Source of the DNA: Phylloscopus collybita
Taxonomy: Eukaryota; Chordata; Aves; Passeriformes; Phylloscopidae
DNA: 64,000 nucleotides
NCBI GenBank assembly: GCA_027886175.1
Contig: JAJNNQ010000142.1
Span: forward strand, 1,618,501 to 1,682,500
Direction of reading: 5' to 3'
In this document: positions 1 through 38,516 of the stretch, piece after piece
Layout of the letters: every line of letters starts with the position of its first letter
Position numbering within the stretch: the first letter of the stretch is position 1
Notes under the pieces: generated by a model
What the model was told of the DNA's origin: nothing
The model's database searches: none
Seen by the model: only the letters and a program-made list of their open reading frames with translations
Translations under genes and position numbers: made by a program

Positions 1-364
1 GACCTTGACCGCCATTCAACTCATCAGGAACCTGAAGGACAGCAGCTCTTAGGATGACCACCCTCCTTGACTGGCCGTTACGAGGCAGCTGCGTGTGAGC
101 TGAAACACTCTGGGCCCAAATTCAAGCCTCCTGAAGCTTCCCAGAAAGGAGCTCCAAGGGTTTGGTTCGGGTCATTTACGGCGGCACTGACACCACCCTG
201 TTCCAGCCCTGATGTGCACAGGTGCCGAACCCTTGGTACAGCTGCTGAAGCCCTTGGTTTCTGTGCTTCTCAAAGTGGAAGAGCAGCAATTGTGCCTTTA
301 GTCATTCCCCAAGGGAAACAAACGCCGGGTGACAGAGAGACAGAATTCCTTTGCCTGCACTCAC

Positions 365-1489
365 CGTGAACTTCATAAGCCATGTAGGTGGTGAGTCCAC
401 TGCACATGGAGAAGACGTCTGCTCCGTAAGACCTGAGGTTGTTGACCAATCCATTGGCAACAAAGGTGATCTTCTTGGTAGGTCTTCCAAGACCGATCTG
501 GTTCTAAGCATCAAAGAACAGAATTCAGCAAGCTCAGTGCTGGCATCTGGCTCCTGCTAGGCGTATTCCCTAGGGGAAAGGCTGTGGAATAGGGAGACGC
601 TCTCTTGCACTCCACAGGAAAAGGGAGTCTGGCAAAGGAGCAGCTGCAATGCCAAGTTCTGAGCTGGCCAGTTCAGTTTAGCACTGAATAGTCTGCGTAG
701 GACTTGGAGATCTTGGCGTGCCAAGAGAATGGAGGCCCTTGAAGGGCTCCTCAGAGCAAGGCTTGGCCCAGCAAGCTGCAGAGATCAAAGTTCTCAAACA
801 ATGTGGAGCTGGGGGAAGGAATGCTGCAGCCCTTTTCTTCTTTCAGCAAAGCATTCCTATAAAAAACTCCCAAGCCCCACCAATGCTGAGAGAAAGACAA
901 TCCTGCCACTTGTGACAACCCGATCCTGCCCCGAAGGAAAAAGCGCATGAAGAAATGGGCCAATGATCTCCAGGGTCACAACGCTGCTACTCCTTGGGAA
1001 TCTTACCCTGCTCTCCTCTGCCAGCCGGGCCAGATTATTGAAGCTGGGCATCTCGCTTCTGTTCATGATGGAAATGTAGCAGGTGTTCTGTTGCGTGACT
1101 TTGGTTGCAATGACGCCCTGTAAAACAGAGGTGTTGAGCACTCGCACTTCATTCTTTCACACCTTGGGATTGGAGAAAACCCTTTGTTAAAACAGGAACG
1201 AATTCCGAGATCTCCTGCCCCAAATCGTGCACTCAACACGGTCAGAAAAAGGAGACAAGCCCCATCTCTGGGCCAGCTCTGCCCGGAGTCAGTCTCCTGA
1301 CGTGCCGTGTGAACAAGCCCCCTCCGTGCCACTCACCGTGTTGTAGTTCCAGATGGTTTTCCAGGACCCACTGACGCTCGTTTTCTCAATGACTGCCACG
1401 TGCCATTGCCTGTTGATGGTCACGACTTGGGACTGGCCACCAATGATGACTTGCGTGCTGTTGACGATGCCGCCAGGAATCTGCTGAGA
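365..1489 (-). CDS. Gene A BRICHOS module 4 (partial; last exon off the left edge)
   Basis: Exons 1489-1337, 1117-1007 and 503-365 repeat module 2 at another 1,867-base step. The exon 503-365 ends with phase-1 donor G|GTGAGT, so a C-terminal exon is expected roughly 50-130 bases to the left of the window. Whether that exon stops, or continues into more modules, cannot be seen here. Confidence 0.72.
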
Positions 1490-4400
1490 CTAAAACGCCA
1501 AGGGAAAGAAGATGTTTCAGCTTTGAAGGGAGACAGTGATGTCCCCAAAGCTTCTGAAAACTCCCTGCTCAGATAGAAGAAGTGCTGTTCCCCAGGAAGA
1601 GCCAGCACTGCCCTCTGTCTTTTCCAGAGGACCCGGAACCATGGCAAGAAGGGCATCAGGGTTGGCTTTGGACAGCGCCTCTGAAGCCCCTCCCTCCCTT
1701 TTGGTTCAAGAAAGGTAAGGGCTGAGGTTTTCTTACTTGTCCATTGCCACTGCAGTACTTCAGATCCACGGCTCTCAGGACATTGAGGGTAATGCAGGAT
1801 CCCAGGTTCACTTGGAGTCCTTGGAAAGCAAGCAAGAAGGAAACAAACCCAATGAGCTTATGCCTAAGACCTTGACCGCCATTCAACTCATCAGGAACCT
1901 GAAGGACAGCAGCTCTTAGGATGACCACCCTCCTTGACTGGCCGTTACGAGGCAGCTGCGTGTGAGCTGAAACACTCTGGGCCCAAATTCAAGCCTCCTG
2001 AAGCTTCCCAGAAAGGAGCTCCAAGGGTTTGGTTCGGGTCATTTACGGCGGCACTGACACCACCCTGTTCCAGCCCTGATGTGCACAGGTGCCGAACCCT
2101 TGGTACAGCTGCTGAAGCCCTTGGTTTCTGTGCTTCTCAAAGTGGAAGAGCAGCAATTGTGCCTTTAGTCATTCCCCAAGGGAAACAAACGCCGGGTGAC
2201 AGAGAGACAGAATTCCTTTGCCTGCACTCACCGTGAACTTCATAAGCCATGTAGGTGGTGAGTCCACTGCACATGGAGAAGACGTCTGCTCCGTAAGACC
2301 TGAGGTTGTTGACCAATCCATTGGCAACAAAGGTGATCTTCTTGGTAGGTCTTCCAAGACCGATCTGGTTCTAAGCATCAAAGAACAGAATTCAGCAAGC
2401 TCAGTGCTGGCATCTGGCTCCTGCTAGGCGTATTCCCTAGGGGAAAGGCTGTGGAATAGGGAGACGCTCTCTTGCACTCCACAGGAAAAGGGAGTCTGGC
2501 AAAGGAGCAGCTGCAATGCCAAGTTCTGAGCTGGCCAGTTCAGTTTAGCACTGAATAGTCTGCGTAGGACTTGGAGATCTTGGCGTGCCAAGAGAATGGA
2601 GGCCCTTGAAGGGCTCCTCAGAGCAAGGCTTGGCCCAGCAAGCTGCAGAGATCAAAGTTCTCAAACAATGTGGAGCTGGGGGAAGGAATGCTGCAGCCCT
2701 TTTCTTCTTTCAGCAAAGCATTCCTATAAAAAACTCCCAAGCCCCACCAATGCTGAGAGAAAGACAATCCTGCCACTTGTGACAACCCGATCCTGCCCCG
2801 AAGGAAAAAGCGCATGAAGAAATGGGCCAATGATCTCCAGGGTCACAACGCTGCTACTCCTTGGGAATCTTACCCTGCTCTCCTCTGCCAGCCGGGCCAG
2901 ATTATTGAAGCTGGGCATCTCGCTTCTGTTCATGATGGAAATGTAGCAGGTGTTCTGTTGCGTGACTTTGGTTGCAATGACGCCCTGTAAAACAGAGGTG
3001 TTGAGCACTCGCACTTCATTCTTTCACACCTTGGGATTGGAGAAAACCCTTTGTTAAAACAGGAACGAATTCCGAGATCTCCTGCCCCAAATCGTGCACT
3101 CAACACGGTCAGAAAAAGGAGACAAGCCCCATCTCTGGGCCAGCTCTGCCCGGAGTCAGTCTCCTGACGTGCCGTGTGAACAAGCCCCCTCCGTGCCACT
3201 CACCGTGTTGTAGTTCCAGATGGTTTTCCAGGACCCACTGACGCTCGTTTTCTCAATGACTGCCACGTGCCATTGCCTGTTGATGGTCACGACTTGGGAC
3301 TGGCCACCAATGATGACTTGCGTGCTGTTGACGATGCCACCAGGAATCTGCTGAGACTAAAACGCCAAGGGAAAGAAGATGTTTCAGCTTTGAAGGGAGA
3401 CAGTGATGTCCCCAAAGCTTCTGAAAACTCCCTGCTCAGATAGAAGAAGTGCTGTTCCCCAGGAAGAGCCAGCACTGCCCTCTGTCTTTTCCAGAGGACC
3501 CGGAACCATGGCAAGAAGGGCATCAGGGTTGGCTTTGGACAGCGCCTCTGAAGCCCCTCCCTCCCTTTTGGTTCAAGAAAGGTAAGGGCTGAGGTTTTCT
3601 TACTTGTCCATTGCCACTGCAGTACTTCAGATCCACGGCTCTCAGGACATTGAGGGTAATGCAGGATCCCAGGTTCACTTGGAGTCCTTGGAAAGCAAGC
3701 AAGAAGGAAACAAACCCAATGAGCTTATGCCTAAGACCTTGACCGCCATTCAACTCATCAGGAACCTGAAGGACAGCAGCTCTTAGGATGACCACCCTCC
3801 TTGACTGGCCGTTACGAGGCAGCTGCGTGTGAGCTGAAACACTCTGGGCCCAAATTCAAGCCTCCTGAAGCTTCCCAGAAAGGAGCTCCAAGGGTTTGGT
3901 TCGGGTCATTTACGGCGGCACTGACACCACCCTGTTCCAGCCCTGATGTGCACAGGTGCCGAACCCTTGGTACAGCTGCTGAAGCCCTTGGTTTCTGTGC
4001 TTCTCAAAGTGGAAGAGCAGCAATTGTGCCTTTAGTCATTCCCCAAGGGAAACAAACGCCGGGTGACAGAGAGACAGAATTCCTTTGCCTGCACTCACCG
4101 TGAACTTCATAAGCCATGTAGGTGGTGAGTCCACTGCACATGGAGAAGACGTCTGCTCCGTAAGACCTGAGGTTGTTGACCAATCCATTGGCAACAAAGG
4201 TGATCTTCTTGGTAGGTCTTCCAAGACCGATCTGGTTCTAAGCATCAAAGAACAGAATTCAGCAAGCTCAGTGCTGGCATCTGGCTCCTGCTAGGCGTAT
4301 TCCCTAGGGGAAAGGCTGTGGAATAGGGAGACGCTCTCTTGCACTCCACAGGAAAAGGGAGTCTGGCAAAGGAGCAGCTGCAATGCCAAGTTCTGAGCTG

Positions 4401-7400
4401 GCCAGTTCAGTTTAGCACTGAATAGTCTGCGTAGGACTTGGAGATCTTGGCGTGCCAAGAGAATGGAGGCCCTTGAAGGGCTCCTCAGAGCAAGGCTTGG
4501 CCCAGCAAGCTGCAGAGATCAAAGTTCTCAAACAATGTGGAGCTGGGGGAAGGAATGCTGCAGCCCTTTTCTTCTTTCAGCAAAGCATTCCTATAAAAAA
4601 CTCCCAAGCCCCACCAATGCTGAGAGAAAGACAATCCTGCCACTTGTGACAACCCGATCCTGCCCCGAAGGAAAAAGCGCATGAAGAAATGGGCCAATGA
4701 TCTCCAGGGTCACAACGCTGCTACTCCTTGGGAATCTTACCCTGCTCTCCTCTGCCAGCCGGGCCAGATTATTGAAGCTGGGCATCTCGCTTCTGTTCAT
4801 GATGGAAATGTAGCAGGTGTTCTGTTGCGTGACTTTGGTTGCAATGACGCCCTGTAAAACAGAGGTGTTGAGCACTCGCACTTCATTCTTTCACACCTTG
4901 GGATTGGAGAAAACCCTTTGTTAAAACAGGAACGAATTCCGAGATCTCCTGCCCTAAATCGTGCACTCAACACGGTCAGAAAAAGGAGACAAGCCCCATC
5001 TCTGGGCCAGCTCTGCCCGGAGTCAGTCTCCTGACGTGCCGTGTGAACAAGCCCCCTCCGTGCCACTCACCGTGTTGTAGTTCCAGATGGTTTTCCAGGA
5101 CCCACTGACGCTCGTTTTCTCAATGACTGCCACGTGCCATTGCCTGTTGATGGTCACGACTTGGGACTGGCCACCAATGATGACTTGCGTGCTGTTGACG
5201 ATGCCGCCAGGAATCTGCTGAGACTAAAACGCCAAGGGAAAGAAGATGTTTCAGCTTTGAAGGGAGACAGTGATGTCCCCAAAGCTTCTGAAAACTCCCT
5301 GCTCAGATAGAAGAAGTGCTGTTCCCCAGGAAGAGCCAGCACTGCCCTCTGTCTTTTCCAGAGGACCTCGAACCATGGCTGTGGTTTTGGGCAAAAGGCC
5401 GTGGGAATTCTTTTCATGGATTCAGTGAATCGTTGCTGCATCTGATCAGCTGTCATCTGCTGCCTTTAGAGGCTGATGAGTGCAAGAGGACTGGCCACCG
5501 TTAGTCCGTGCTCAAGGTCCTGGACAGAAGACTGTGCTCACTCCTTGCTCTTTTGGCGCATCTGCACCCTCAAGCAGGAAGCTCTCAAAAGAGGAGATGC
5601 CAGGCAAGAAGGGCATCAGGGTTGGCCTTGGACAGCGCCTCTGAAGGCCCTCCCTTCCTTTTGGTTCAAGAAAGGTAAGGGCTAAGGTGTTCTCACCGGG
5701 AAAGTCGTACTGGCATTGCCACTGCAGTAGTTCAGATCCACAGCTCTCAGGACATTGAGGGTAATGCATGATCCCAGATTCACCTGGGGTCCTTGCAATG
5801 CTGGGAAAGAAAAGACATACCCCCCATGAGGCAATCTCCGAGAGTTTTGGCTGCCTTTCTATAGGAGGGTGCTGGGCTTCCTCAGAACCAGCCAGGTACT
5901 GAAGAATTGCTGCACTAGGAATGTTTGAGGTGTGTGGGAGACCCATTCTCTTGGAGTCCCCAAAGAGCTCCGTCTCTGTCGCTCCGCAGGGAATGCTCAC
6001 AAAGACATGCTCTTGAACACCCTTTGGGATTTCCTGTGCAGAAATTGAGGGTCTGTTGCACTGGCTCCTGTGAGTCCCAATGGCTGGCCTATACATGGAG
6101 AGGCTGCTGCCAGTTCATGGGCCCAGTCACATAGTCTGTGACTTTCCAAAGGAATCCTGCCAAGTGTAGGTCATTGAAGCTTTCAGGAATGGGATTGTTG
6201 CCCCAGGGAAAAACCTAGAGGGATCAAAGCCACTTGGCTTAGTGTTGTGAAGCACAAGAGTTTGTTGGCTACTGTCAATATTTGGGGCCTGTGTCAACGT
6301 TTTAGCTAGCTCTCACCTGAAGGACACTGGTTCTTAGGATGACCCTTCTTCTTGACTGGCCATTACAGAAGAGCTTTTTGCAGGCTAAAAACTGGGCTGA
6401 AACATAAGCCCTGTTACACATCCCAGAAAAGAGGTGTGAAAGTTTGGTTTGTACCATTTATACGGGCTGTGACACTACCCTGCTCCTATCCTGATCTGTG
6501 GCGGTGTGAACAATTTGTGCAACTGCTGAAGCTCTTGGTTTCTGTGCCTCTCAAAATAGAAGAGCAGCACTTGTGCCTTAGCCATGCCCCAAGAGACAAG
6601 AAGGCCAGGTCAGTAACACCCAGGATTCCCAAGGCTTGCACTCACTGTGAAATTCATAAGCCAGGTAAGTGGTGAGTCCGCTGCACATAGCAGTGATGTC
6701 TCCTCCGTAGGAGTTGAGGTTGTTGACCAATCCATTGGTGGTGACAAAGGTGATCTTCTTGGTAGGACTTCCAAGGCTGTTCTGGTTCTAAACAACAAGC
6801 AACAGTATTCAGCAAGCTCAGTGATGGTAAGATGATTTGTGCTTTAGGTATTCTTAGCTGTGGGAGGATGACTCAGGGCTGGGTATTTGAGCCCAAACTG
6901 CCTTTAGGGACACCTTTCAATCTCCTGGGGGCCTGTGGGACCACTAGCAAGCCCTGAAGACAGCAGGAAAGGCAGAGCTTGTTCTAAGAGAATCAAGGTG
7001 CAGGGAGCCTGAGGGGATGTGGCAGTGCAAGGAAAGTGCAGGAGAGGAGAAGAGCAGCGCGGCCACTCTGTGGAGCCAGTGCTCCTTCCAAAGAATTTGC
7101 TCAGTCACTGCCCTCGCCCCTCAGAGGCTCTCAGGCTAGCAGAGAAGTCTTCTCCTGATTTCTTTCCACCTTACAGGTCTTCCTGCTATTTAAATTTTTG
7201 GGGTTTTTACAGACTTCATTCTCAGATTTCAAGAGAAGCTTGTGTTTTGCAAAGGTGAATATGCTGAATGCTGAGATCACTTTCATAATGTCTGTGCTAA
7301 TGTGAACAGCTGAATTAAAGGAACGTGGTGCATAATTTTCTTCAAAATGTTTAAAAGCTTACTTAAAGATTTTTTTCTGTAATACTTCAATATTTGCCCT

Positions 7401-9306
7401 TCCTTAATTAGACCTTCTGAAAAAAAAAATTTTAGACTTTGAGAATGAGAAATTTTGAAACATATTTAGCAAGAAATCTAAATTGTAGATACTAAGACAG
7501 TAAAAAAAAGTGTTAATGATATAATAATTTAAATAATTGTAAAAATAATCTAACTAATCTGGGACTTGGACTCAACATGATGAAGTTGCACTAAAGGAAT
7601 CTGAATAAGGATATTGTAGTTTTTGAATGTTTACAAATAATGTAACTGAAAAATATTACCAAAAATATCACCACTAAAATATCTTTTTATTTACCCATTG
7701 GTTTAGAAGGTTTAGAAAATAGTAGTGTCTCAGACAAAAAAAATTAATATCAAGTGCTGCAAAATATTCAAAGCTACTGCTAATTTTGAATCTTACCGTG
7801 TTCTGTGAAGCCAGTTGGGCCACATTTTCAAAACTGGGCATCTCATTTCTGTTCATGACAGAAATGTAGCAAATTCTCTCTTGCATCAATTTGGTTGCAA
7901 TGATACCCTGTAAGAAAAAGTTATTGACTGACTTCCAATTCAGTTTTTCAACCCTTGGGATTGGAGAAAACACTTTGTTAAAACAGGAATGAATGCCAAA
8001 GTTTGCTACCCCAAAATCATGCACTGAACGCAGTCAGAAAAAGGGAACATGCCCCTCCCTGGGCCAGCCCAACCAGGAGCCAGTGTCCATGGAAGCTTTG
8101 GGAATAAGCACCTTCCATGCCACTCACCGTGTTGTAGTTCCAGATAGTTTTCCATGAGAAGCGGTCGCTCCTTTGTTCAATAACCACCACACGTGTTTGA
8201 CTACTGAGAGTCAGATTTTGTAAAACACCACCAACAGAGACCTGGCAGTTGTTATCTGTTTGCTGAGACTGAAAAGCCAAGGGAAAGAAGATGTTTAGTC
8301 TTTGAAGTGGGGCAGTGATGTATCCACAGTTTTAAAAAAATCACTGCTACATTGGAAGTGCTGCTGATTTTTACTCCAAGGATGACTTGCTGGTTTTCAA
8401 TTTTTTGCTCAATTAAAAATTGAGACAGTTTTAGATTTTCAAACTAGTCAGTGATCTCCTAAATTTTTTATTAAAATCTTTGCTAGACTAGAATAAGTTT
8501 TACCCCATAGAGAGTGTCAGAGTTTCATCCATCAGAGAAGATTTCAATTTGTTTCCTCCAAAGGGGTGGTAAAAGAAAAACGAGATCTCGTGAAGCGGGG
8601 GACATAGAAAAAGCAGCCATTCATGCGGAAATTGTTCACTTGTACTCACATAATCAGCAAGGGCTGGAGTCAGGACAAGTCCAAGAAGGACTGCTGTCAA
8701 AATCTGAAATGAAAATCAAATACAAAAGTGTAACTGCAGCTCTGGCTGACAAACCTGGTCATGAGAATCCTCCTTCCCTTTTCCTAATCTGATGGTTAAG
8801 GGTCCTTCTTGGATGCTTTTTTGCGTTCCTCCTGGGATTGCATCAGTGCCCCGAATTTACCCAGGGTGCTGCAAAGCAGACACATTTCACACTTGCTATT
8901 TCAAGAGCTGAATCTCAAGTTGTTTCTCAGACCTGTGCAGGCACACACAGGTATTTGACAAGAGTGAGGAGAAAGCTTTTCCATTGCTTCTGCTCTGGCA
9001 TTACAGGGAAGGGCTTGATCCACTAGTGCAGTGCTCCAGTTGTGCAAAAGCACTGATAGTAATGGACATGGATTAGGCTTCCTGTTTTCTGAATAATCTA
9101 CAGCCAAGCCGTGCAAAAATCCTTACCTCCTCAGCACCTCTGAGGAACAGGGGCTGAGTTGCTCATTCTGGAGGAGCAAAATGTTCCCAGAGAAAGCCTC
9201 AGTGCTCCAGAGAGACAGAAGCCTTTCTGAGGGATAAAGGAATGGGTTTGAATCAAAATTTCAGTTTATAAGGAAGAAAATCATGCATACTTACAGGGAG
9301 ATTCAT
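365..9306 (-). CDS. Gene A: secreted multi-BRICHOS gastrokine-like gene (3' end beyond the window)
   Basis: Spliced gene read right to left. Coding exons that I can delimit by GT/AG sites and an unbroken frame are: 9306-9295, 8703-8650, then 8268-8128, 7907-7797, 6787-6646, 5791-5697 (module 1), 5223-5071, 4851-4741, 4237-4099, 3686-3604 (module 2), 3356-3204, 2984-2874, 2370-2232, 1819-1737 (module 3), 1489-1337, 1117-1007, 503-365 (module 4, incomplete). Junction phases are 0-0-1-0 within each module, so each module is a whole number of codons (163, 162, 162). About 640 residues are visible. Gastrokines are stomach-secreted BRICHOS proteins normally with one such domain. The family call rests on motifs matching gastrokine-1/2: IWxY before a Cys exon, TCYIS, MCSGLTTYMAYE, and a final exon with two Cys. 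Joining of modules into one transcript is inferred from splice sites, not shown; separate or alternative transcripts remain possible. Confidence 0.72.
1737..3356 (-). CDS. Gene A BRICHOS module 3 (array copy)
   Basis: Exons 3356-3204, 2984-2874, 2370-2232 and 1819-1737, each displaced by exactly 1,867 bases from module 2. The encoded residues appear identical to module 2; the one exonic base change I saw (position 3339) is synonymous in a Gly codon. All splice sites are retained. The near-identity means the duplication is very recent or is being homogenised. Confidence 0.74.
3604..5223 (-). CDS. Gene A BRICHOS module 2 (array copy)
   Basis: Exons 5223-5071 (51 codons), 4851-4741 (37), 4237-4099 (46 plus 1 base) and 3686-3604 (2 bases plus 27 codons), 162 codons in all. 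The linker exon begins SQQIPGGIVNST and contains IIGGQSQVVTINRQW, a beta-strand-like stretch in front of the BRICHOS core. The Cys exon contains NTCYISIMNRSEMPSF; the next has GRPTKKITFVANG and MCSGLTTYMAYEVH. The last exon reads LGSCITLN, LKYCSGNGQ and meets donor GTAAGA directly after the CAA codon, so it splices onward in frame. There is one potential N-glycosylation site (NST). No stop or frameshift was seen. Confidence 0.75.
5697..8268 (-). CDS. Gene A BRICHOS module 1 (four exons)
   Basis: Exons: 8268-8128 (47 codons; Gln/Asn-rich start, ends SWKTIWNYNT), 7907-7797 (37 codons; starts GIIATK, contains ICYIS and NRNEMPSF), 6787-6646 (47 codons plus 1 base; PTKKITFV, MCSGLTTYLAYEFH), 5791-5697 (2 bases plus 31 codons; NLGSCITL and LNYCSGNA). 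The four cysteines match the gastrokine pattern: one pair within the BRICHOS fold and a second pair in the C-terminal exon. The last exon does not stop but ends ACTTTCCCG followed by donor GTGAGA in phase 0. This module is more diverged than the array modules and lies next to the promoter, so it is probably the founder. The exon 3 start could instead be 6 bases further in (tandem AG acceptor). Confidence 0.78.
8650..9306 (-). CDS. Gene A signal-peptide exons 1 and 2
   Basis: Exon 1 coding part is 9306-9295 (ATG AAT CTC CCT, then donor GTAAGT). Exon 2 is 8703-8650, with acceptor TTTCAG and donor GTGAGT, both phase 0. Together they give a 22-residue leader: MNLP, then a run of hydrophobic residues (ILTAVLLGLVLTPALA), then DY. 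This is a standard secretory signal peptide with likely cleavage after ALA. Human gastrokines also split their leader at this point and begin the mature chain soon after an ALA-type cleavage site. This is the only signal-peptide exon pair found for any gastrokine module in the window. Confidence 0.8.
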
Positions 9307-9361: not shown

Positions 9362-9369
9362 CTTTTATA
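9362..9369 (-). promoter_or_regulatory. TATA box of gene A
   Basis: On the minus strand the bases at 9369-9362 read TATAAAAG, about 56 bases upstream of the start codon at 9306. Transcription would therefore begin near 9335, leaving a short leader of about 30 bases. A TATA promoter fits a tissue-restricted, strongly expressed secretory gene. The start site itself is inferred. Confidence 0.6.
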
Positions 9370-19175: not shown

Positions 19176-21816
19176 TCAGATCTGCCCATTGCCCCTGCAG
19201 TACTTCAGCTCCACAAGTCTCAAGACATTAAGTGCAATGCATGATTGTTGATTGTATTGGGGTCCTTTAAAAAAAACAAACAAAATAAAATACAATTAGT
19301 TTGTAGGGAAGATATTCTTAGGTAATTGATGAGAGCTCATTTTTGTTGCTTGACGTGAACTAGGTTGTTCATAATTGCTGTATAGGAAATCAATTAATAG
19401 ACAAAGAATCTCTGAAGTCATGAAACAACACTGGGTCTATAATACAGAAATGAGAAAACAATGGTATTTAGGGCTACCCTTTCTCTTACTGTGGGCATTG
19501 CAGAGGATATCAATATGTAAAATACTATGCAATAACTTAAGCCACCTTAAACTTCACAGAAAGTGAAGTTTAAGTAGTAATGATATTGATCAGGTCAATC
19601 ATGGAGGCTGTGCCTCAGCCTTGTTTCAGTCCTGATGTGCACAGGTGCCGAACCCTTGGTACAGCTGCTGAAGCCCTTGGTTTCTGTGCTTCTCAAAGTG
19701 GAAGAGCAGCAATTGTGCCTTTAGTCATTCCCCAAGGGAAACAAACGCCGGGTGACAGAGAGACAGAATTCCTTTGCCTGCACTCACCGTGAACTTCATA
19801 AGCCATGTAGGTGGTGAGTCCACTGCACATGGAGAAGACGTCTGCTCCGTAAGACCTGAGGTTGTTGACCAATCCATTGGCAACAAAGGTGATCTTCTTG
19901 GTAGGTCTTCCAAGACTGATCTGGTTCTAAACAGAAAATACCAGCGTTCAGCAAGCTCAGTTTCAGAAGCTGCTTCCCTTCTAGGCCTATTCCTAGCTCT
20001 AGAATGATGATTCAGGGCTGGGTGTTTGAATCCAAACTGCCTTTAGGGACAACTTTCAATCCCTTAGGGGACTGTGGGAGCACTGGCAAGCCTTGAAGGC
20101 AGCAGAAAAGGCAGAGCTTGTTCCAAGGGCGTCAAAGTGCAGGGATCCTGAGGGGAAGTGGCAGTGCAAGGAGAGTGCTGAAGACGCAAGAGGAGAATGG
20201 CCGCTCTGTGGATCCAGAGCGCCTTCCAAAGCATTTGCTCAGTCACTGCCCCCACAGAGCTGGGGGAGGGAACGCTGCAGCCTCTTTCTTCTTTTGGCAA
20301 AGCATTCCTACAACAAATTCCCAATATGCATTCCTGTTGAGAGACTGGAAACCTTGGCACTTGAGACAACTAGAGACAACCTGATCCTATCCAGAAAGAA
20401 AATGCACATGAAGAAATGGCCTGATGATCTCCAGAGTATGGGCAGGGTTGGCAGTGATGGCTGTGATTGTTACATATATAGGCTTTCAAAATAATGGACT
20501 TTGATAAAGGGTATCTGAAAGCCAACTGCACAACACTTCCTTCCCACTGGCAAGCAAGGTGTTGAGATTTTCTTCAGGAGGATGCACCTTAGGACTAGCA
20601 AGCCACAATCTATAGCTAAAGCTGAATGTTTTTGCTTATGCCCTTAGTGATAACACTCTACAGGGTTTTTTTCTGCCCCTTAGGTTTTCTTGCTTTTTAA
20701 AGCCTTGATTTTTTTAAGGACTCAGTTCTGAGTCTGCAGTGTAAGTCAGTGCCTGCCAAAGGTAAGTATCCTAAATGCTGAAACCATTTTTAAAATGTCC
20801 GTGTTAATTTAGTGGGCGGAGCTCATGCTAACATGGTCATTATTTTTCAACATTTTGAGAGATGATTTATAATTTTTCAGCTTAATGGGATATTTGTTCT
20901 AAATTAAATACACCTCAACCAAAGACATTAATTTCCTTACCATGCAAGGTATGGAAGATTATAAAGGGTACCGTACCACAGATCTACACTCTTGGATCAT
21001 AACAGGGTATTAAAAGGAGGTCAGTATAAAAACTCATGGCAAACAATGTAAAAATTACCCAGGATATCTACAACATTATTCAAAAATGAGAAACCTTCAC
21101 CTTAAAGAGCTTATTATTATTTATGAAGCTTTTAAAATTCATAATAAATTGAACTACATAATTAATAGTGTGATACAAATCACTTCTAAACACCTAATTG
21201 TTTAAAAGGCTTTGAAAATAGCAGTCTTTGACATCTGTTTATTTTTAAATACTAAGCAACATTCAAAGTGATTCCTCCTTTAAATTCTTACCCTTCTCTC
21301 TGCAGCCACTTTGACAACTGCAGCAAAGGTGGGCATCTCACTCCTGTTCATGGTGGAAATGTAGCACGTTCTCTCTTGCATCACTTTTGTTGCAATGACA
21401 CCCTGTAAAATAAAACTAATGAGCACTCACAATTCCATTTTTTCTAACTGTTAACATTGGACTAAAATTTGGATTGAAACAATAACAAATGCTGAGAATT
21501 TCTACCTCATATTTTTAGTGGGGGACTCCAAAATTTAGGATAAAGAAAATAATTGCTGTCCTTGGGCCACCTGTATGATGAGCCAGTCTCCTTGGATGTT
21601 TTTTCAACAAGCCTCCTCCATGCCACTCACCGTACTGTAGTTCCAGATGGTTTTCCAGGACAAACAGTTGCTTTTTTGTTCAATGATTGCCTTTTGTGTT
21701 TGACTATTGATGCTTATGCTTTGTGAGATGCCAGAGATAGAGATTTGAGAGTTCCCACCAGAGATGGAGATTTGGGAATCTCCACCAGTGATGATTTGTT
21801 GGTTGTTATCTGTCTG
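19176..21816 (-). CDS. Gene B terminal BRICHOS module with stop codon
   Basis: Exons 21816-21631 (62 codons), 21402-21292 (37), 19926-19788 (46 plus 1) and 19264-19176. The linker exon has repeated GGxSQISIS units before the core (CLSWKTIWNYST). The Cys exon reads RTCYIST and MNRSEMPTF. The last exon has motifs SCIALNVL and LKYCRGNGQI followed by TGA at 19178-19176. Where other modules have donor GTGAGA or GTAAGA, this copy reads ATCTGA, so a lost splice donor turned an internal exon into the final one. Only the single acceptor (TCGCAG) is available for the linker exon. Confidence 0.68.
19629..19935. repeat. Segment near-identical to the gene A array (exon 5 and flank)
   Basis: About 300 bases from CTGATGTGCACAGG to just past the exon acceptor are the same as 205-505 of the array, apart from one base near 19,916. 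The rest of gene B is much more diverged from the array. The sharp edges suggest gene conversion, or a recent copy event, between genes A and B. Confidence 0.75.
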
Positions 21817-22290
21817 CTGCGATAAGAAAACCACATGAAATATTTTCAGACTGTGCAAGTAGCTAGGTCTCATATGACATATTTACAAAAAATCCGTGCA
21901 AGAAAAGAATAAGTGCTCTGATCCAGGGAGAGATGGCAGTGGAGGTGTATTTTCAAATTAGGAAGAGATATTTAAAATAAAAGCAACAAAAAAGACTGTG
22001 GCAGTGAGCAGAGGCTGTAATAATTTTTTTTATTCAGTACATTTGGGCATCTGATAGCTGTCATCTGGTGCCTTTAGAGGTTAATGCATGCAAGAGAGCT
22101 GGCCACAGTAATCCATGCGCAAAGTCCTGGACAGAAACCTCTGATCACTTATTGCTCTTTTAAAGAATCTGCATCCTCAAGTAGGAACCCCTCAAAAGAG
22201 GAGATGCCAGGCAAGAAGGTTGGTTTTGGGCAGCAGTGAGTGACCCCTCTCATTTTGTTCAAGAAATGTAAGGGCTAAGTGTTTTCTCAC

Positions 22291-25051
22291 CTGTCCATTG
22301 CCATTCCAATTGCCATTGCCATTCCAATTGCCATTCCAATTGCCATTGCCATTCCAATTGCCATTCCAACTGCTATTGCAGTACTTCAGCTCCATAACTC
22401 TCATGACATCAAGGGTAGTGCATGATCCCAGATTCACCTAGGGTCCTTGGAATGCTGGGAAAGAAGACATAACCCCATGAGCTAATGCCTAAGGCCTTGG
22501 CTGCCTTTCTACAGGAGGGTGCTGGTGTTGCTCAGAGTCAACCAGGTTCTAAAGAATTGCTGCTCTGGGAATGTTTGAGCTGTGAGAGACAGATTCTGCT
22601 GGAATCCCCAAAGAGCTCCAGCTCTGTGGCTCTGCAGGGAATGCTCACAAAGACATGCTCTTGAACACCCTTTGGGATTTCCCGTGCAGAAATCAGGGCT
22701 CTGTTTCACTGGCTCCTGTGAGTCCCAATGGCTGGCCTATACATGGTGAGGCTGCTGCCAGTTCATGGGCCCAGTTGCATGGGCTGCGACTTTTGAAGGA
22801 ATCCTACCAAGTGTGGGTCATTAAAGCCCCAGAGAATGGGATTGTTGCTTGTTGGAAAAACCTATAGGGATCAAAGCCCCTTGGCTTAGTGTTGTGAAGC
22901 ACAAGGGTTTGGTGGCTGCCTGGGTCAACTTGTCAGCAACCTCTGACATGAAGGACAGTTGTTCTTAGGCTGACCATTTCTCTGTGCCTGGGTGTTGCAG
23001 GGTAGTTCAGTTCTGGCTGAAACACTCTGTGCCCAAATTGAAGCTCCATTAAGCATTCCTGAGAGGAGCTGTGATGGTTTCCCTGGGGTCATTTATGGGG
23101 GTTGTTACACCACCCTGCTCCAATCCTGATCTGTGGAGGTGCGAACAATTTGTGCAGTTGGTGAAGCCCTTGGTGTCTGTGTGTCTGAAAATGGAAAAGC
23201 AGCAATTGTGCTTTAGTCATGCCCCAAGAGACAGAAAGGCCAGGTCAGTAACACTCAGAATTTCCAATGCTTGCACTCACTGTGAACTTCATAAGCCATG
23301 TAGGTGGTGAGTCCACTGCACATAGCAGTGATGTCTGCTCCGCAGAAGTAGAGGTTGTTGACCAATCCATTGGTGACAAAGGTGATCTTCTTGGTAGGTC
23401 TTCCAAAACCGATCAAGTTCTGAAAAACAAGCAACAGCATTCCGCAAGCTCAGTGTCATGAGCTGGTGCATGTTAAGGCTATTCATAGCTCTGGAATGAG
23501 GACTCAGGGCTGGGTGTTTGACTCCAAACTGCCTTTGGAGACAACTTTCATTGCTCTGGGGGCCTGTGAGACCACTAGGGGATTGAAGGCAGAAGAAAAG
23601 GCAGAGCTTGTTCCAAGGGAGTCAAAGTGCAGGGATCCTAAGGGGAAGTGGCAGTGCAAGGAACGTGCTGAAGAGGAGAAGAGCAGTGTGGCCTCTCTGT
23701 GGATCCAGAGCTCCTACCAAAGCGTTTGCTCAGTCACTGCCCTCGCCCCTCAGAGGCACATGGCTGGAAGGCCGGCAGGAGAAGTCTCTTCCTGCAGCCC
23801 GTTCTAACCTGGAACCAGAGGGCAGCAGCAAGCCTGGGCAGGTACATTTGCTCTTGGACTATTTGCAGGTGGTGCTTCGGGCCCCTCTGTGAGAGCTCTG
23901 GGTTCTCTAGTGGGACAGGTCACAAGGGCTCCCATGGGCTTTGTTTCAAATGAGTTGCCATTCTGTTTTCCTCCTGGAATGCATTGTTGCCTTGCCCAAG
24001 CCCCTGGCTGCTTTCCTGCTGTTTCCTCCTGCGCTTGGGTCTTCCCTCTGCTCTCCAGCTCCTTCTTCAGCTAGGACCACAGGCCTACAGGTGGGGCTCA
24101 TCCCATGAATGTGGGGGAAAGGCTGTGGAATAGGGAGACACTTTCTGATGCTGCAAAGGAAAAGGGACTCTGGCCAAAAGCAGCTGCAATGCCATGTTCT
24201 GAGCTGACCAATGCAGTTTGGTACTAGTAAATGTGTGAAGGACTTTGACATCTTGGCATGTCAATAGGATTAAGGTTCTTGAAGGGCTCTTCAGGGCAAG
24301 GCTTTGCCCAGCAAGCTGCAGAGCTCAGCATTCTCAGAGAAAGCAGAGCTGGGGGAGGGAGTGCTGCAGCCCCTTTCTTCTTTTGGCAAAGCATTCCTAC
24401 AACAAATTCCCAATCTGCATTACTATTGAGAGGAAGGAAACCCTGCCACTAGAGAAAACCTGATCCTATCCAGAAAGAAAAAGCACATGAAGAAATGGCC
24501 CAATGAAGTCCAGGGCGAGAAACCTGCTACTCCTTGGGAATCTTACCCTGCTCTCCTGTGCCAGCCGGGCCAGATTATCAAAGTGGGGCATCTCGTTTCT
24601 GTTTATGATGGAAATGTAGCAGGTATTCTGTTGTGCAACTTTGGTTGCAATGATGCCCTGTGAAATAAAAGTATTCAGCACTCACAGTTCAGTTTTTTTT
24701 CAACTGTTAACACTGGGATAAAGCTGGGATTCAAACCATAACTGTTGCTGAGAGTTTCTGCCCCACATTGTGGGCTCCAGATGTTCAGAATAAGGAAGCA
24801 ATCTCTGTCTTTGGGCCAGCTGTAGGAGGAGCAGTCTCCATGTTTTTTGGGGAAGCCCGCTCCGTGCCACTCACCGTGTTGTAGTTCCAGATGATTTTCC
24901 AGGACCTGCTGATGCTCGTTTGCTCAATGATTGCCACGTGCCATTGCCTGTTGATGGTCACAATTTGGGACTGGCCACCAATGATGACTTGCATGTTGTT
25001 GAAGATGCTGCCTCGCGCATTGTTGAGGATGATGCCTGGAATCTGCTGAGA
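22291..25051 (-). CDS. Gene B module B2 with TAG and long WNGN linker
   Basis: Exons 25051-24875 (59 codons, an expanded linker with ARGS and NNMQ), 24657-24547, 23419-23281 and 22445-22291. The first three are open and typical. In the last exon the second full codon is TAG (22440-22438) in place of CAG; the frame is otherwise open through GSCTTL and LKYC to a run of WNGN units ending at donor GTGAGA. An alternative acceptor just after the TAG would shift the frame and soon stop. As it stands, translation reaching this exon would end before the last cysteine pair. Confidence 0.62.
22293..22376 (-). repeat. Coding minisatellite for WNGN linker
   Basis: Inside the last exon of module B2, units of 6 and 12 bases (plus-strand CCATTG and CCATTCCAATTG) repeat about ten times. 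On the minus strand, in frame, they encode Trp-Asn-Gly-Asn and Asn-Gly repeats. A shorter version lies in the module B3 exon (about 25,527-25,580). The units keep the reading frame, so length changes alter only linker length. Confidence 0.85.
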
Positions 25052-25520
25052 CTAAAACACCAAGGGAAAGAAGATGTTTCCCCTTTGAAGGGAGATAGTG
25101 ATGTCCCCAAAGCTTCTGAAAAATCCCTGCTACAATGGCAGAAGTGCTGCTCCCCAGGAAGTGCCAGCACTGCCCTCTGTCTTTTCCAGAGGACCCGGCA
25201 CCATGGCTGTGTTCTTGGGATAAGGCCATAGGAATTCTTTTCATGGATTCAGTAAATCATTGCCGCATCTGATCAGCTGTCATCTGCTGCCTTTAGAGGT
25301 TGATGCTTGTAAGAGGACTGGCCACATTAAATCCTTGCTCAATGTCCTTGATGGAAACCTCTGATCACCCATTACTTGGTTTCAGCATTTGCACCCTCAA
25401 GCAGGAATCCCTCAGAAGAGGAGATGCAAGGCAAGAAAAGCATGAGGGTTAGCTTTATGCCACAGCTCTGGAGCCCCCCCCATTTTCTTTCAAGAAAGGT
25501 AAGGGCTACGGTTTTCTCAC

Positions 25521-28028
25521 CAGGAAACTGCCATTGCCATTCCGGTTGCCATTCCAATTGCCATTGTTGCCATTCCAACTGCAGTACTTTAGCTCCACAA
25601 CTCTCAGGACATCGAGGGTAATGCATGATCCCAGATTGACCTGGGGTCCTTGGAATGCTGGGAAAGAAAAGACATAACCCCATGAGCTAATGCCCAAGAC
25701 TTTTGGCTCTTTCTACAGGAGGGTGCTGGTGCTCCTCAGAACCGGCCAGGTTCTGAAGAATTGCTGCACTGGGAATCTTTGAGCTGTGTGGGAGACCCAT
25801 TGTCTTGGAGTCCCCAAAGAGTTCTGGCTCTGTGGCTCAGCAGGGAATGCTCACAAAGAGAAGCTCTTGAACACCCTTTGGGATTTCCCATGCAGAAATG
25901 AAGGCTCTGTTGCACTGGCTCCTGTGAGTCCCAATGGCTGGCCTATACACGGAGAGGCTGCTGCCAGTTCATGGGCCCAGTCACATGGTCTGCAACTTTT
26001 GAAGGAATCCTACCAAGTGTGGGTCATTAAAGCCCCGGGGAATGGGATTGTTACTCCTTGAAAAAACCTATAGGGATCAAAGCCCCTTGGCTTAGTGTTG
26101 TGAAGCACAAGGGTTTGGTGGCTGCCTGGGTCAATTCATCAGCAATCTGTGACCTAAAATACTCTTCTTCATGGACCAAAACTTCTTTTTTACTCTAGAT
26201 ATTACAGGGGAGCACAGTGTGAGCCAAAACGGTCTGGGCCTGAATTGAAGCCCATTAAGCATCCTTGAGAGAGGCAGTAAGGGTAAGGGTTTGGTTTGTG
26301 TCATTTTTGGGGGCAGTGATACCACCCTGTTCCAGTCTTGACCTGCGGAGCTGCCAAACATTTTTGCAACTGCTCTAAGCCCTTGGTGTCTGTATGTCTC
26401 AAAATGGAAAAGCAGCAATTGTGCCTTGGCCATGCCCCAAGTAACAAGAAGGTCAGGTCAGAAACGCTGAGAATTCCCAAGGCTTGCACTCACTGTGAAC
26501 TTCATAAGCCGTGTAGGTGGTGAGTCCGCTGCACATAGCAGTGATGTCTGCTCCGTAGGAGTTGAGGTTGTTGACCAATCCATTGGTGACAAAGGTGATC
26601 TTCTTGGTAGGACTTGCAAGACCAATCAAGTTCTAAATATCAAAAACCAGTATTCAATAAATTTAGTTTCAGGAGCAGGTTCCTTCTCAGCCTGTTCCTA
26701 GCTGTGGGAGGATGACTCAGGCTTGGGTTTTTGAGTCCCAACTGCCTTCAGGGACACCTTTTAATTATCTGGGGACCTGTGGGACCACTGGAAAGCCTTG
26801 AAGGCAACTACAAAGGCATAGGTCTTTCAAAAGGAGTCAAGGTGCAGGGAACTTGAGGGGAAATTGTCGCAGTCAATGTATGCGGTAGTAGTCGACATGG
26901 ACACTGCACTCACACTCAAGGTGCTTCTTTAGAATCATCAGAAGGCTTCAAGTATCAGTATCTTGATATTCAAAAAGTCTCCCACACCTTTCCTCTGTAT
27001 CTCCTCAGAGCAGCTCCACACAGCTCTGGCTCCTCTTCAGCTCTGGCTGTCCTTCTGTTCTGGCTCTCTTCTTCCTGACCCTGGCACAGCTGCCTAACCC
27101 TGTCTGTCCTATGTACAGTATCTTACCTTTTCTGGCCCTTGCACGACCTCCTATCCCTAGGTCTTCACAGCAAGCAAACTCCAACTCCTGCTAGTTAACT
27201 CACTCTTTTATCAGTCCCATGGCTGTGAGGGCAAGGCTGTTTCTACTCTAGGATAATTAACACAGGTGTAACATATCAGGAGGGAGACTGCCTTCAGCAG
27301 CATCTCCTTTGTCTCCCCACAGGAAATGGCAGCAGAAGAAAAGCACTGAAAGGCTCCACAAAGAACAGGTTTGCCCAGCAGGCTGCAGAGCTCAGAGAGC
27401 TCTCATCCATAGAGAGAGTGTGGGAGGGAGTAACCCTGCCACTTGGGACAAGCTAATCCTGTCAAGAGGGAAAATGCACATGAAGAACTGGCCCAATGAA
27501 TTTAAGGGCAAAAAACCTGCTACTCCTTGGGAATCTTACCCTGCTCTCCTGTGCCAGCTTGGCCAGATTATCAAAGTGGGGCATCTCGTTTCTGTTCACG
27601 ATGGAAATGTAGCAGGTGTTCTGTTGTGTGACTTTGGTTGCAATGATGCCCTGTGAAATAAAAGTATTCAGCACTCACCATTCAGTTTTTTCCAACCGTT
27701 AACATTGGGAGGGATAAAGCTGGGATGGAAACCATAACAAATGATGAGAGTTCTTGCCCCATGTCATGGACTCCAGACATTCAGACTAAGGAAACAGTCT
27801 CTGCCCCTGGGCCAGCTGTACGAGAGGCCAGTCTCCTTGGATGTGTTTTGAAGAAGCCACCTCTGTGCCACTCACCGTGTTGTAGTTCCAGATGGTTTTC
27901 CAGGACCCACTGAGGCTCATTTGCTCAATGATTGCCGCGCGCCATTGCCTGTTGATGGTCACAATTTGGGACTGGCCACCAATGATGACTTGTGTGTTGT
28001 TGAAGAGGATGTCTGGAATCTGCTGAGA
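25521..28028 (-). CDS. Gene B module B3, intact BRICHOS module
   Basis: Exons 28028-27876 (51 codons), 27650-27540 (37), 26632-26494 (46 plus 1 base) and 25648-25521 (2 bases plus 42 codons) keep all splice sites, phases and the four cysteines. Motifs are IIGGQSQIVTINRQW, NTCYISIVNRNEMPHF, PTKKITFVTNG, MCSGLTTYTAYEVH and GSCITLDVLRVVELKYC. The final exon ends in an Asn/Gly/Trp-rich linker (WNGN-type units) before donor GTGAGA. Nothing in this module alone suggests decay. Confidence 0.66.
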
Positions 28029-28509
28029 CTAAAACGCCAAGGGAAAGAAGACATGTCATGTTTTAAGGGAGACAGTGATGTCCTCAAATGTTCCCCAAAA
28101 ATTCCTGCTACATTGGGAAAAGTGCTGCCCACCCAGGAAGTACAGCACTAACCTCACTCTTTTCCAAAGGACCCAGAATCAGGGCTGTGGCATTGGGCAG
28201 AGGCCGGAGGAATTCTTTTAATGGATTCAATGAATCATTGCTGCATCAGACAGCTTTCATCTGCTGCCTTTAGAGGTTGATGTGTGCAAGAGCGCTCACC
28301 ATAGCAAAGCCATGTTCACAGTCTGGGATGGAAACCTCTGATCACCCATTGCTCTGTTTCAGCATTTGCACCCTCAAGCAGGCTCAAACACCCTAAAACC
28401 TCATAAAAGAGGAGATATCAGGCAAGAAAGACATCAGGGTTGCCTTTAGACAACAGCTCTGGTGACCCCCCTTTTGGCAGAAGGAAGGTAAAGGTTAAGA
28501 TTTTCTCAC

Positions 28510-29558
28510 TGGGAAATTGGTACTGCCATTTCCATGGCAGTACTTCAGCTCCACAACTCTCAGGAAATCAAGGGTAATGCATGATCCCAGATTCACCTAG
28601 GGTCCTTGGAATGCTGGGAAAGAAAAGACAAAACCTCATGAACTAATATTTAAGGCTTTGGCTGCCTTTCTACAGGAGGGTGCTGGTGTTGCTCAGAGTC
28701 AACCAGGTTCTAAAGAATTGCTGCTCTGGGAATGTTTGAGGTGTGTGGGAGACCCATTCTCTTAGAGTCCCCAAAGAGCTCCGTCTCTGTCACTCCGCAG
28801 GGAATGCTCACAAAGACATGCTCTTGAACACCCTTTGGGATTTCCCGTGCAGAAATCGGGGCTCTGTTTCACTGGCTCCTGTGAGTCCTAATGGCTGGCC
28901 TATACATGGAGAGGCTGCTGCCAGTTCATGGGCCCAGTCGCATGGACTGCGACTTTCTGAAGGAATCCTACCAAGTGTGGGTCATTAAAGCCCCAGAGAA
29001 TGGGATTGTTGCTTGTTGGAAAAACCTAGAGGGATCAAAGCCACTTGGCTTAGTGTTGTGAAGCACAAGGGTTTGGTGGCTGCCTGGGTCAATTCATCAA
29101 CAATTTCTGACCTGAAGGACAGCAGTTCTTAGACCGACCCTTCTTCTTGACTGGGCGTTACAGAAGAGTGCGGTGTGTGCCAAAACAGTCTATACCTGAA
29201 GTGAAGCCCCATGAAGGGAACTGTAAGGGTTCTGTTTGGGTCATTTATGGGGGCTGTGACACCACCCTGTTCCAATCCTGATCTGCGGAGGTGCGAACAT
29301 TTTGTGCAACTCCTCTGAAGCCCTTGGTTTCTGTCTGACTAGAGGTGGAAGGGCATCAATTGTGCCTTGGCCATGCCCCAAGAGACAAGAAGGCCAAGTC
29401 AGTAACACTCAGAATTCCCAAAGCTTGCACTCACCGTGAACTTCATAAGGTTGTGAGTCCGCTGCACATAGCAGTGATGTCTATTCCATAAGGCCTGAGG
29501 TTGTTGACCAGGTGACAAAGGTGATCTTCTTGGTAGGTCTCCCAAGACCAGTCAGGTT
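28510..29558 (-). pseudogene. Gene B module B4: broken exon plus linker exon
   Basis: Exon 29558-29435 is 124 bases instead of 139. It lacks 7 bases near the TNGLVNN motif and 8 bases near TTYMAYE, which shifts the frame and exposes a stop in between. The following exon 28604-28510 keeps both splice sites and the motifs GSCITLD and LKYCHGNG, but its second full codon is TAG (28599-28597) where the intact copies have CAG. The preceding two exons of this module were not found upstream and are probably lost at the 30.12 kb breakpoint. Confidence 0.68.
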
Positions 29559-30151: not shown

Positions 30152-30731
30152 GTAGAAAACAAAACCACCCAACCAACCAAGCAAACAAACAAACAACAAA
30201 TTTGGAAAACCCTGACAGAGTCAGAGCTACAACCTGACACTCTGTTGGTCAGGGTGTTGGAAGCAGTCCAAAACTAAGTCCTCCTGGAGTAGCAGATGAG
30301 GTTCTGTTGAAGTAGAGATGATCCTGTAGCAAAAGGGTCCAGGGATGATGAGAAGTGGTCCAGTGATGGTGAGATGGGGTCCAGTCTTCCTCCCGGAAAT
30401 TGGGTGAAGCTGGATGCCTTGTGTTCCTACATCTCAGTTTTTTATCTAGGTAGGAATGGTTGGCTCCCCGCACTGGGTGGAGCATCTCACAATAGGATGA
30501 CGGAATGTGGATTTACTGCTTTGGGGAGAACACCTTGGGGAGTTTTATTGGCCTATTGTGAAAAGAGATAAGAAACACTGTCCCACCTGGCTTTAACAGT
30601 TGGCCCATTATCAGAAGGCATCCTCCCCCCCCTCCTCCCAGAGTTACAAGAGATAAAGAAAAAAAACATCTCCCCAGCTGCTTTCAACAGATGAAATAGA
30701 ATACACATTTTTCGTTCCATAACCCAAGACA
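30152..30731 (-). repeat. Outer (older) ERVL provirus: 3' LTR, truncated
   Basis: The segment shares the CAAACAAACAAACAA tract, the GACAGAGTCAG box and the AGAGATAAAGAAAAAACATC box with the LTR at 42,855-43,496. It ends (plus map) at ACCCAAGACA, next to a purine-rich tract just inside. About 180 bases of its outer end, including the terminal TG, are missing, so no target duplication remains. Confidence 0.75.
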
Positions 30732-32738
30732 TTATCCACCCCTTATTCTATTATCATCTGCATCCCTGAATCAATAAACTCTACTATTCAGAATGAACCC
30801 TTACACTCAGTTCTCACATAGAATTAGATTTTCATGTGGTACACAACTGGTTTTTCCATTTTTCTGCATTACCCACCCAGTGTAACCAAGTCCTTGAACA
30901 AAAACAATCCCATGGATGGGTTCACCTTTGCCTGAGGTGGGGTTAATCCAACCAGTCTTTCCTAAAACACCTCTCATGTGTACCACAGACTTTATCTCCA
31001 TCCACTGTGTGCAAGGGGGCAGACTGGGCAGGACCAGCTCGATTGATGGAGCCTCGGGTGTTGACCATCCAGGTGGCCTTTGCTAAGTTCACTTCCCAAT
31101 TCTTGAAGGTCCCTCCGCCAAGTGCCTTCAGGGTGCTCTTAAGTAGTCCGTTGCACCATTCAACTTTCCTGGCAGTTGATGAATGATAAGGGATGTGATA
31201 TACCCATTCAATGCTGTGTTCTTTAGCCCAGGTATTTATAAGGCTGTTCTTGAAATGGGTCCCATTGTCCGACTCAATTCTCTCAGGAGAGAGACGGAAA
31301 AACAGGACTCGTTTTTCCAGGCCCAGGATTGAGTTGCTCAGAACTCAGATGGTGTTCTGGGTAGTAGCATGAGGCACAGGATAGGTCTCCAGCCACCCAG
31401 TGGTGGTTTCCACCATGGTCAGCATGTAGCATTTGCCTTGGCGGGTTTGGGGCAAGCTGATATAGTCAATCTGCCAGGCATCCCCATACTTACATTTGTA
31501 CTACTGTTTACTATACTATAGGGGCTTCACCCGCTTGGCCTGCTTGATGGCAGCACACATCTCACAGTCATGGATAACCTGTGAAATACTGTCCATGGTT
31601 AGATCCACCCCTCGGTCTCGTGCCCACTTATAGGTGGCATCTCTGCCCTGATGACCTGAGGCATCATGGGCCCACTGAGCTATGAACAACTCTCCCTTGT
31701 GTTGCCAATCCAAGTCTATTTTGGACACCTCTATCCTTGCAGCTTGATCTACTTGCTCGTTGTTCTGGTGCTCCTCATTAGCCTGACTCCTGGGGACATG
31801 GGCATCCACATAATGGACTTTCACAGGTAGTTTCCCTACTCTGGTGGCGATGTCTTTCCACTCATCAGCAGCCCAGATTGGTTTTCCCCTATGCTGCCAA
31901 TTGGCCTTTTTCCACCTTTCCAGCCAGCCCCACAGAGCATTAGCTACCATCCACAAATCAGTGTAGAGGTAGAGCTTTGGCCACTTCTCTCTTTCAGCAA
32001 TGTCCAAGGCCAACTGAACAGCTTTGAGTTCAGCAAGCTGGCTTGACCCACCATCTCCTTCAGTGGCTAGTGCAACCTGTCTTGTGGGGCTCCATACGGC
32101 TGCTTTCCACTTCCGGTTCATCCCTACGATGCGACAGGAACCATCAGTGAAAAGAGTGTAGCATGTTTCCTCTGCTGGAAGATGGTTATACGGTGGAGCT
32201 TCTTCAGCCCAGGTTACTTTCTCTTGTTCCTCTTCGTCAGTGAGACTGAAGTTTTTAGCTTCCGGCCAGTTGGTGTTTATTTCTAAAATTCCAGGGCGAT
32301 TCGGGTTTCCAATACGGACTGCTGAGTGATGAGGGTGATCCATTTGCTTCATGTGGTGTCAGTGGCATGGTGGGTGGAGGGAACTTTTCCTTTAAACATC
32401 CACCCCAGCACTGGTAGTCGAGGTGCCAGGAGGAGTTGTGTTCCAGTGCCAATCACCTCTGAGGCGGTTTGAACTCCTTCGTAGGCGAAGGCCAAGATCT
32501 CCTTCTCTGTGGGAGTGTAATTGGCTTCAGACTCTCTGTAGCTTCGGCTCCAGAATCCCAGTGGCCGGCCTCGAGTCTTACCAGGCACCTTCCGCCAAAG
32601 GCTCCAGGACAGACTGTGGCTCCCAGCTGCGGAGTAGAGCTCGTTCTTCACCTCTGGTCCCGTCCTGACTTGGCAAAGGGCTGCTGCATGTGCGATTTCC
32701 TGCTTGAGCTGGGCAAAGGCGTGTTGCTGTTCTGGGCC
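30732..32738 (-). pseudogene. Outer ERVL provirus: 3' part of pol (RNase H, integrase)
   Basis: Open pieces at 32,651-32,349, 32,352-31,516 and 31,001-30,807 cover the RNase H region (FTDGSCR, LYTDLWMVANAL), the integrase zinc-binding region (HDASGHQG, CEMC) and the integrase C-terminus. They match the inner provirus pol closely but are broken by frameshifts and stops, including near 31,500. The right edge is the exact insertion point of the inner provirus. Confidence 0.82.
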
Positions 32739-33404: not shown

Positions 33405-33482
33405 TTATCCACCCCTTATTCTATTACCATCTGTATCATACCTAAATTAATAAACTCCACTATACAGAATGAACCCTCACAC

Positions 33483-36665: not shown

Positions 36666-36668
36666 CTA

Positions 36669-38426: not shown

Positions 38427-38516
38427 TATTCTGGCCAGTGGGCTTTTATCTAATATGCAAGAACTGTTATTCCTCTCTCTCAATGCCCTCGTGCCCCACC
38501 CTTGGGCGCCAAAATC

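Follow-up and report, generated by a model that had tools for sequence, protein, structure and literature searches.

How does a secreted protein with a single signal peptide come to carry several BRICHOS domains, and are such domains read together or as separate genes? This question is raised by a gastrokine-like locus of Phylloscopus collybita (assembly GCA_027886175.1, contig JAJNNQ010000142.1, positions 1,618,501 to 1,682,500), which we analyzed over a window of 64,000 nucleotides. On the minus strand, at the left end of the window, lies what is likely a gastrokine-like gene in which intragenic tandem duplication has multiplied a BRICHOS body of four exons, and which would be read from a single promoter and signal peptide as one secreted chain. 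We call this array 1, with module 1 (m1) followed by modules 2 to 4 (U2, U3 and U4, collectively U). A second array (array 2, modules P, Q, R and S) is found on the same strand. The near-identity of modules 2 to 4 as tandem units of 1867 bp and the presence of array 2 go beyond a preliminary description of this DNA. The coordinates of all features are given in Table 1.

Predicted promoter, leader and spliced frame of array 1

The exon positions proposed in the preliminary description proved correct: 17 exons, made up of two leader exons and four modules on the plan a-b-c-d, are open when spliced. Joined, they give 646 codons with zero stops. In a shorter join of leader, m1 and U2, the right frame has 0 stops whereas the other two contain 14 and 10, and a chance frame was therefore rejected. 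All exons are entered in phase 0 except exon d, which is entered in phase 1. In modules 2 and 3 the acceptor of exon d is CCAAG/GACTCC (slashes mark exon boundaries), and in module 1 exon d has two acceptors 9 bases apart, both in frame. Each module starts and finishes at phase-0 introns; modules are thus 0-0 symmetric, and the addition of copies would leave the reading frame intact.

The start codon is at 9306 on the minus strand. Directly at the N-terminus there is a hydrophobic stretch of 22 residues, which we read by eye as a signal-peptide-like leader. It precedes module 1 and is the sole such leader among the best 30 matches in the window (next best E 0.25), in line with the single signal peptide described before. 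It had also been claimed that the last exon of modules 1 to 3 ends in a donor instead of a stop, and a donor was found there in all three.

Modules 2 to 4 sit inside the 1867-bp unit, whose copies are 99.8-99.95% identical. The copies at 1-1867 and 1868-3734 show 1 difference in 1867 bases, the third has 99.8% identity over 1645 bases, and the U3 protein is identical to that of U2. Because the unit runs off the left edge of the window, the end of the chain is outside the view. The linker between modules 1 and 2 has 473 bp and the U-U linkers have 247 bp. A stretch of ~226 bp (5380-5602) in the module 1-2 linker is also present in the Q-R linker of array 2 and missing from the U-U linkers; since it is common to the 1-2 and Q-R linkers, the long version of the linker probably came first.

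Table 1. Positions of the BRICHOS arrays, their exons and associated elements in the window
Feature	Coordinates	Strand	Remarks
TATA box (TATAAA)	9364..9369	-	~60 bp upstream of start codon
Leader exon 1 (ATG, MNLP)	9295..9306	-	phase-0 donor
Leader exon 2, remainder of hydrophobic leader (ILTAVLLGLVLTPALADY)	8650..8703	-	phase-0 donor
Module 1 (m1)	exons 8268-8128, 7907-7797, 6787-6646, 5800-5697	-	end is donor CCG/GTGAGA
Module 2 (U2)	exons 5223-5071, 4851-4741, 4237-4099, 3686-3604	-	end is donor CAA/GTAAGA
Module 3 (U3)	exons 3356-3204, 2984-2874, 2370-2232, 1819-1737	-	end is donor CAA/GTAAGA
Module 4 (U4), first 3 exons	1489-1337, 1117-1007, 503-365	-	fourth exon beyond window
Tandem array of 1867-bp unit	1..5379	-	copies 1-1867, 1868-3734, partial 3735-5379
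Array 2, apparently older related BRICHOS array, partly decayed	19176..29558	-	
Array 2 module P, exons c and d only	c 29558-29435 (frameshifted), d 28613-28510	-	in-frame TAG, then donor
Array 2 module Q	28028-27876, 27650-27540, 26632-26494, 25657-25521	-	open; donor CTG/GTGAGA
Array 2 module R	25051-24875, 24657-24547, 23419-23281, 22454-22291	-	TAG in exon d; donor CAG/GTGAGA
Array 2 terminal module S	21816-21631, 21402-21292, 19926-19788, 19264-19176	-	TGA stop at donor place

A second array and its terminal module

A BLAST comparison of the 1867-bp unit with the window detected the related array on the same strand at ~19.1-29.9 kb. Modules Q, R and S are complete, and S is open and ends in NGQI-stop. 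The best 30 leader matches in the window include none that belongs to array 2. Array 2 looks like a decaying relative of array 1 with its 5' end lost or displaced.

The ends of exon d in the two arrays can be compared directly. They read GGACAA/GTAAGAAAAC in U, CCCG/GTGAGAACAC in m1, CCTG/GTGAGAAAAC in Q, ACAG/GTGAGAAAAC in R and CCCA/GTGAGAAAAT in P, while S has GCAG ATCTGAAAAC. Five distinct non-terminal modules (m1, U, P, Q and R) therefore have a donor at this place, and the TGA of S, the one terminal module, falls in the same register as these donors, ungapped. This contrast between donor and stop is the strongest single evidence that the modules may be built for read-through, and from it we predict that array 1 finishes, outside the window, in an S-like exon.

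Exon c of S has 99% identity to exon c of U2 over 139 bases, compared with 77-84% in the aligned parts of the other S exons, and the interval 19590-19993 (S exon c and flanking intron) has 92% identity to the array-1 unit, above the rest of S. Recent gene conversion between the two arrays is probable; because it is indicated, dS (synonymous divergence) cannot serve as a simple clock. Exon d of R (22291-22454) and of Q (25521-25657) also contains in-frame asparagine-tryptophan-glycine (Asn-Trp-Gly) repeats (NWNGNG-like), a low-complexity tail that is missing from the array-1 modules in the window.

Splice sites and polyadenylation signals

Splice sites were scored by a home-made consensus count that covered 12 array-1 exons (out of 17) and 13 array-2 exons, with modules 3 and 4 represented by exons 3d and 4a only. 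Within 30 kb of the minus strand, the scored array-1 donors are within the top 1.4-5.9% of GTs and the acceptors within the top 0.5-11.9% of AGs. The motif GTRAGAAA occurs five times in the 30 kb, each time where the final exon of a module stops (P, Q, R, U2 and U3); since the module copies are homologous, these are not independent events. Module 1 has GTGAGAAC at that place and is outside the five.

None of AATAAA, ATTAAA and TATAAA is present in the three array-1 linkers. The sole variant polyadenylation (poly(A)) signal there is AAGAAA, found in two of the three and overlapping the donor. Poly(A) sites after each module and separate leaders had been named beforehand as signs against a single chain; with no second leader among the best 30 matches and linkers of this composition, a separate gene per module was judged unlikely for array 1. 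This is less clearly excluded for array 2, where ATTAAA or AATAAA is present in two of the three linkers.

Identity of the BRICHOS modules

The whole chain matches Pfam family PF04089 (BRICHOS) in four stretches (E 9.6e-84, 276.2 bits against a cut-off of 25). The module scans covered leader plus m1 (69.2 bits, E 3.7e-19), U2 (72.9 bits, E 2.6e-20), Q (66.8 bits) and S (67.6 bits). Four further Pfam families were listed for the chain, and two of them, TgMIC1 and VPS13_C, exceed their whole-protein cut-offs. No stretch of the four passes alone and none of them appeared among the single modules scanned, and we therefore regard them as weak matches summed over repeats.

According to the main text of Hedlund and colleagues (PMC2751770), the superfamily has only three fully conserved residues, an aspartate (Asp) and two cysteines (Cys), which are D144, C160 and C219 of ITM2A. 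Both BRICHOS Cys are kept in all five distinct modules aligned, with a spacing of 58-59 residues compared with 59 in ITM2A in that paper. Two further Cys are found in the C-terminal region (Cys 143 and 157 in m1 and U2, with equivalents in Q, R and S). The Pfam matches and the cysteines establish homology of the modules with BRICHOS domains. In the same five modules, asparagine (Asn) stands in place of the invariant Asp, 16 residues ahead of the first domain Cys; this makes 7 of 7 module copies carrying that exon when U3 and U4, which repeat U2, are counted. Module P is outside this count, as the relevant exon is missing from the window. N-glycosylation sequons are present in m1 (NLT and NAS) and in U2 (NST and NRS).

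A profile search of PDB gave seven matches up to E 10 and none below 0.3. The two top-ranked are unrelated proteins, and two are the BRICHOS domain of proSP-C (2yad and 8ox2; E 0.66 and 0.75), matched weakly in the part that contains the Asp column and the first Cys. The profile alignment sets the module Asn (in WNYNTG or WNYSTG) on the Asp of proSP-C VVYDYQQ, which at E 0.66-0.75 is support and not proof. A single-sequence search of PDB returned 0 matches, as did Rfam, and NCBIfam returned one match only (13.6 bits against a cut-off of 140). Among prokaryote genome contigs, 120 pattern matches contained 0 relatives, as expected for an animal gene.

Selection on the modules

The ratio of nonsynonymous (dN) to synonymous divergence was calculated for the ten pairs among m1, U2, Q, R and S, and seven pairs were bootstrapped with 2000 replicates each. 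For m1 and U2, dS is 0.53 and dN/dS 0.39, with 0 of 2000 bootstraps giving dN equal to or above dS. The bootstrap fraction is also 0 for m1-S (dN/dS 0.44) and m1-Q (0.47), and it is 0.0005 for U2-S (0.44) and 0.0205 for U2-Q (0.53). The pairs that were not bootstrapped gave dN/dS of 0.67 (m1-R), 0.42 (Q-S) and 0.59 (R-S).

Weighing the explanations

Several observations weigh against a single secreted chain. All of its support comes from DNA sequence, the array-1 end falls outside the window, and expression in the stomach is assumed from the likeness to gastrokines. The ratio dN/dS is not clearly below 1 for U2-R (0.66, bootstrap fraction 0.096) and Q-R (0.67, 0.141), and it is higher among the more recent copies. 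Identity between m1 and U2 is 0.78-0.92 in exons and 0.77-0.95 in introns (local alignments, the 0.95 covering 20 bases); because similarity is not consistently higher in exons than in introns, exon conservation alone is insufficient as an argument. In array 2, P has a frameshift, exon d of both P and R contains an early in-frame TAG, and two of the three linkers carry a canonical poly(A) signal, namely ATTAAA in the P-Q linker (28222) and AATAAA in the R-S linker (22034). For these reasons array 2 may never have been, or may no longer be, one read-through chain. Downstream of the S stop, the first ATTAAA is 645 bases on and the first AATAAA 827 bases on. Finally, the missing invariant Asp counts against an ordinary BRICHOS function.

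Three other explanations of array 1 have to be considered. The leader and module 1 may be spliced to a terminal module, giving a gastrokine of one or two domains with the repeats as passengers or rare isoforms. Skipping any number of modules would keep the frame because the module-boundary introns are all phase 0, near-identical acceptors could compete, constraint on the younger copies is weak, and exon d has an acceptor score of 11 in the U units compared with 14 in module 1. However, every splice site in the repeated units is of the GT/AG type, with donor scores of 5-6 like module 1, and the frame is still open in U and Q, the modules whose dN/dS of 0.53 was noted above (bootstrap 0.0205). 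We consider module skipping unlikely. An array that is non-functional and was recently amplified, with a frame too young for decay, would agree with the decaying state of the adjacent array 2 and with recent units that are too alike for a selection test. Such a pseudogene is very improbable given the TATA box, leader and GT/AG sites, the 646 codons without stop or frameshift, and the values for m1 and U2 (dS 0.53, dN/dS 0.39), which indicate that the sequence was held as coding for much of the divergence, some of it perhaps before the array arose.

The remaining explanation is that the 1867-bp unit is truly single and was multiplied by the assembler, as the single difference between copies 1 and 2 and the 99.8% identity of the third would allow. 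At least two domains would remain even so, since m1 and U are different modules with 68% amino-acid identity. Array 2 has the same multi-module plan, and its copies are no assembly copies because Q and R differ by 6-9% in exons. Five distinct donor-bearing modules and one TGA-ended module make an assembly artefact unlikely as well, and we give it hardly any credence. A gene read through all its modules into one secreted chain thus remains the likely explanation of array 1.

Comparison with known systems

The same six-exon plan is found in human GKN1. Gastrokines (GKN1, GKN2 and group B) have the same linker, BRICHOS domain and C-terminal region with two further Cys. They start with a signal peptide in place of a transmembrane segment and have no extra N-terminal region, and the hydrophobic leader found here may correspond to that signal peptide. 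They have one linker-BRICHOS-C-terminal unit per chain, whereas the predicted chain has at least four, and they have the invariant Asp where the modules have Asn. Because the Asp is missing and the chain is four-domain, we file the gene as gastrokine-like and not as an ordinary gastrokine.

The main text of PMC2751770 lays out a BRICHOS protein as four regions, of which BRICHOS is one. Each module supplies the linker, BRICHOS and C-terminal regions of that layout, and the hydrophobic region is present once, at the start; judged by eye, the region lengths are within the ranges tabulated in the same paper. A layout of one BRICHOS per chain is our own reading of PMC2751770, whose main text states no such rule, and the predicted chain, with four, departs from it. 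None of the terms "two BRICHOS", "tandem" and "repeat" appears in the main text of that one paper. The proSP-C protein has, by the same account, one domain and no C-terminal region.

The 0-0 symmetric module, tandem array and homogenised units found here are also features of tandem-domain secreted proteins. Intragenic duplication of a phase-symmetric module is a well-known mode of gene growth, and we know of no BRICHOS example of it. Provisionally, and on present evidence, we regard the gene as a novel architecture within the gastrokine/BRICHOS family, as public annotation may already hold such proteins.

Other features of the window

Retrovirus-like sequence was recognized by reading at 30700-42750, apparently as several partial or decayed copies. 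There is an uninterrupted frame of 1060 codons within it (36665-33483). Two pieces of 300 residues from the region were scanned; the one from this frame matches reverse transcriptase and RNase H families and the other gave no match. Clusters of C2H2 zinc fingers were found by Pfam on both strands (44791-45576, 56531-57118 and 58635-59057), and similar frames were seen by eye at 54201-55119. A TTCCT microsatellite of 30 copies is at 58067-58217. Between 60 and 64 kb there are many short, degenerate repeats, and GC and AT skew are strong. At ~11,075 there is a motif (ATTCTATGA) that we take to be a CR1-like end; this and the C2H2 clusters agree with, but do not prove, an avian origin.

Predicted product and its significance

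BRICHOS domains are studied as natural anti-amyloid chaperones, active as monomers, dimers or oligomers, and the invariant Asp is studied as a pH-dependent switch. The preliminary description had proposed a secreted chain of at least four chaperone-like BRICHOS domains. At the DNA level the chain itself is supported by the frame, the phases, the splice sites, the four Pfam stretches, the single leader, linkers without AATAAA or ATTAAA, and array 2 with its terminal module. Its chaperone-like nature is less certain, as ordinary BRICHOS activity cannot be assumed where the invariant Asp is replaced.

We propose that one pre-mRNA would be spliced straight through all modules. The product would be a secreted, disulfide-bonded and N-glycosylated concatemer of at least four BRICHOS units, finishing in an S-like terminal module past the window edge. 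It may act as a covalent multivalent form of the oligomeric gastrokine/BRICHOS chaperone, secreted into the stomach mucus or lining, with hydrophobic or amyloid-prone chains as putative targets. With Asp changed to Asn throughout the modules, the only invariant side chain that is ionisable would be lost, which could make the protein insensitive to gastric pH. The Asn may suggest either a pH-independent stomach chaperone or a shift to a structural role, and we weakly favor the first. Array 2 would be an older gene on the same plan, now decaying. More tentatively, and with more doubt than conviction, this relative of gastrokines may be a covalent chaperone polymer of the acid stomach, with all domains lacking the Asp of the pH switch and with a length that varies between individuals or species through the 1867-bp unit.

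If true, a chain of linked BRICHOS units that all have Asn would be a ready-made natural experiment on oligomer state and on the Asp switch. It would also show how a gene for a single-domain secreted protein becomes one for a repeat protein, with a splice donor replacing the stop codon.

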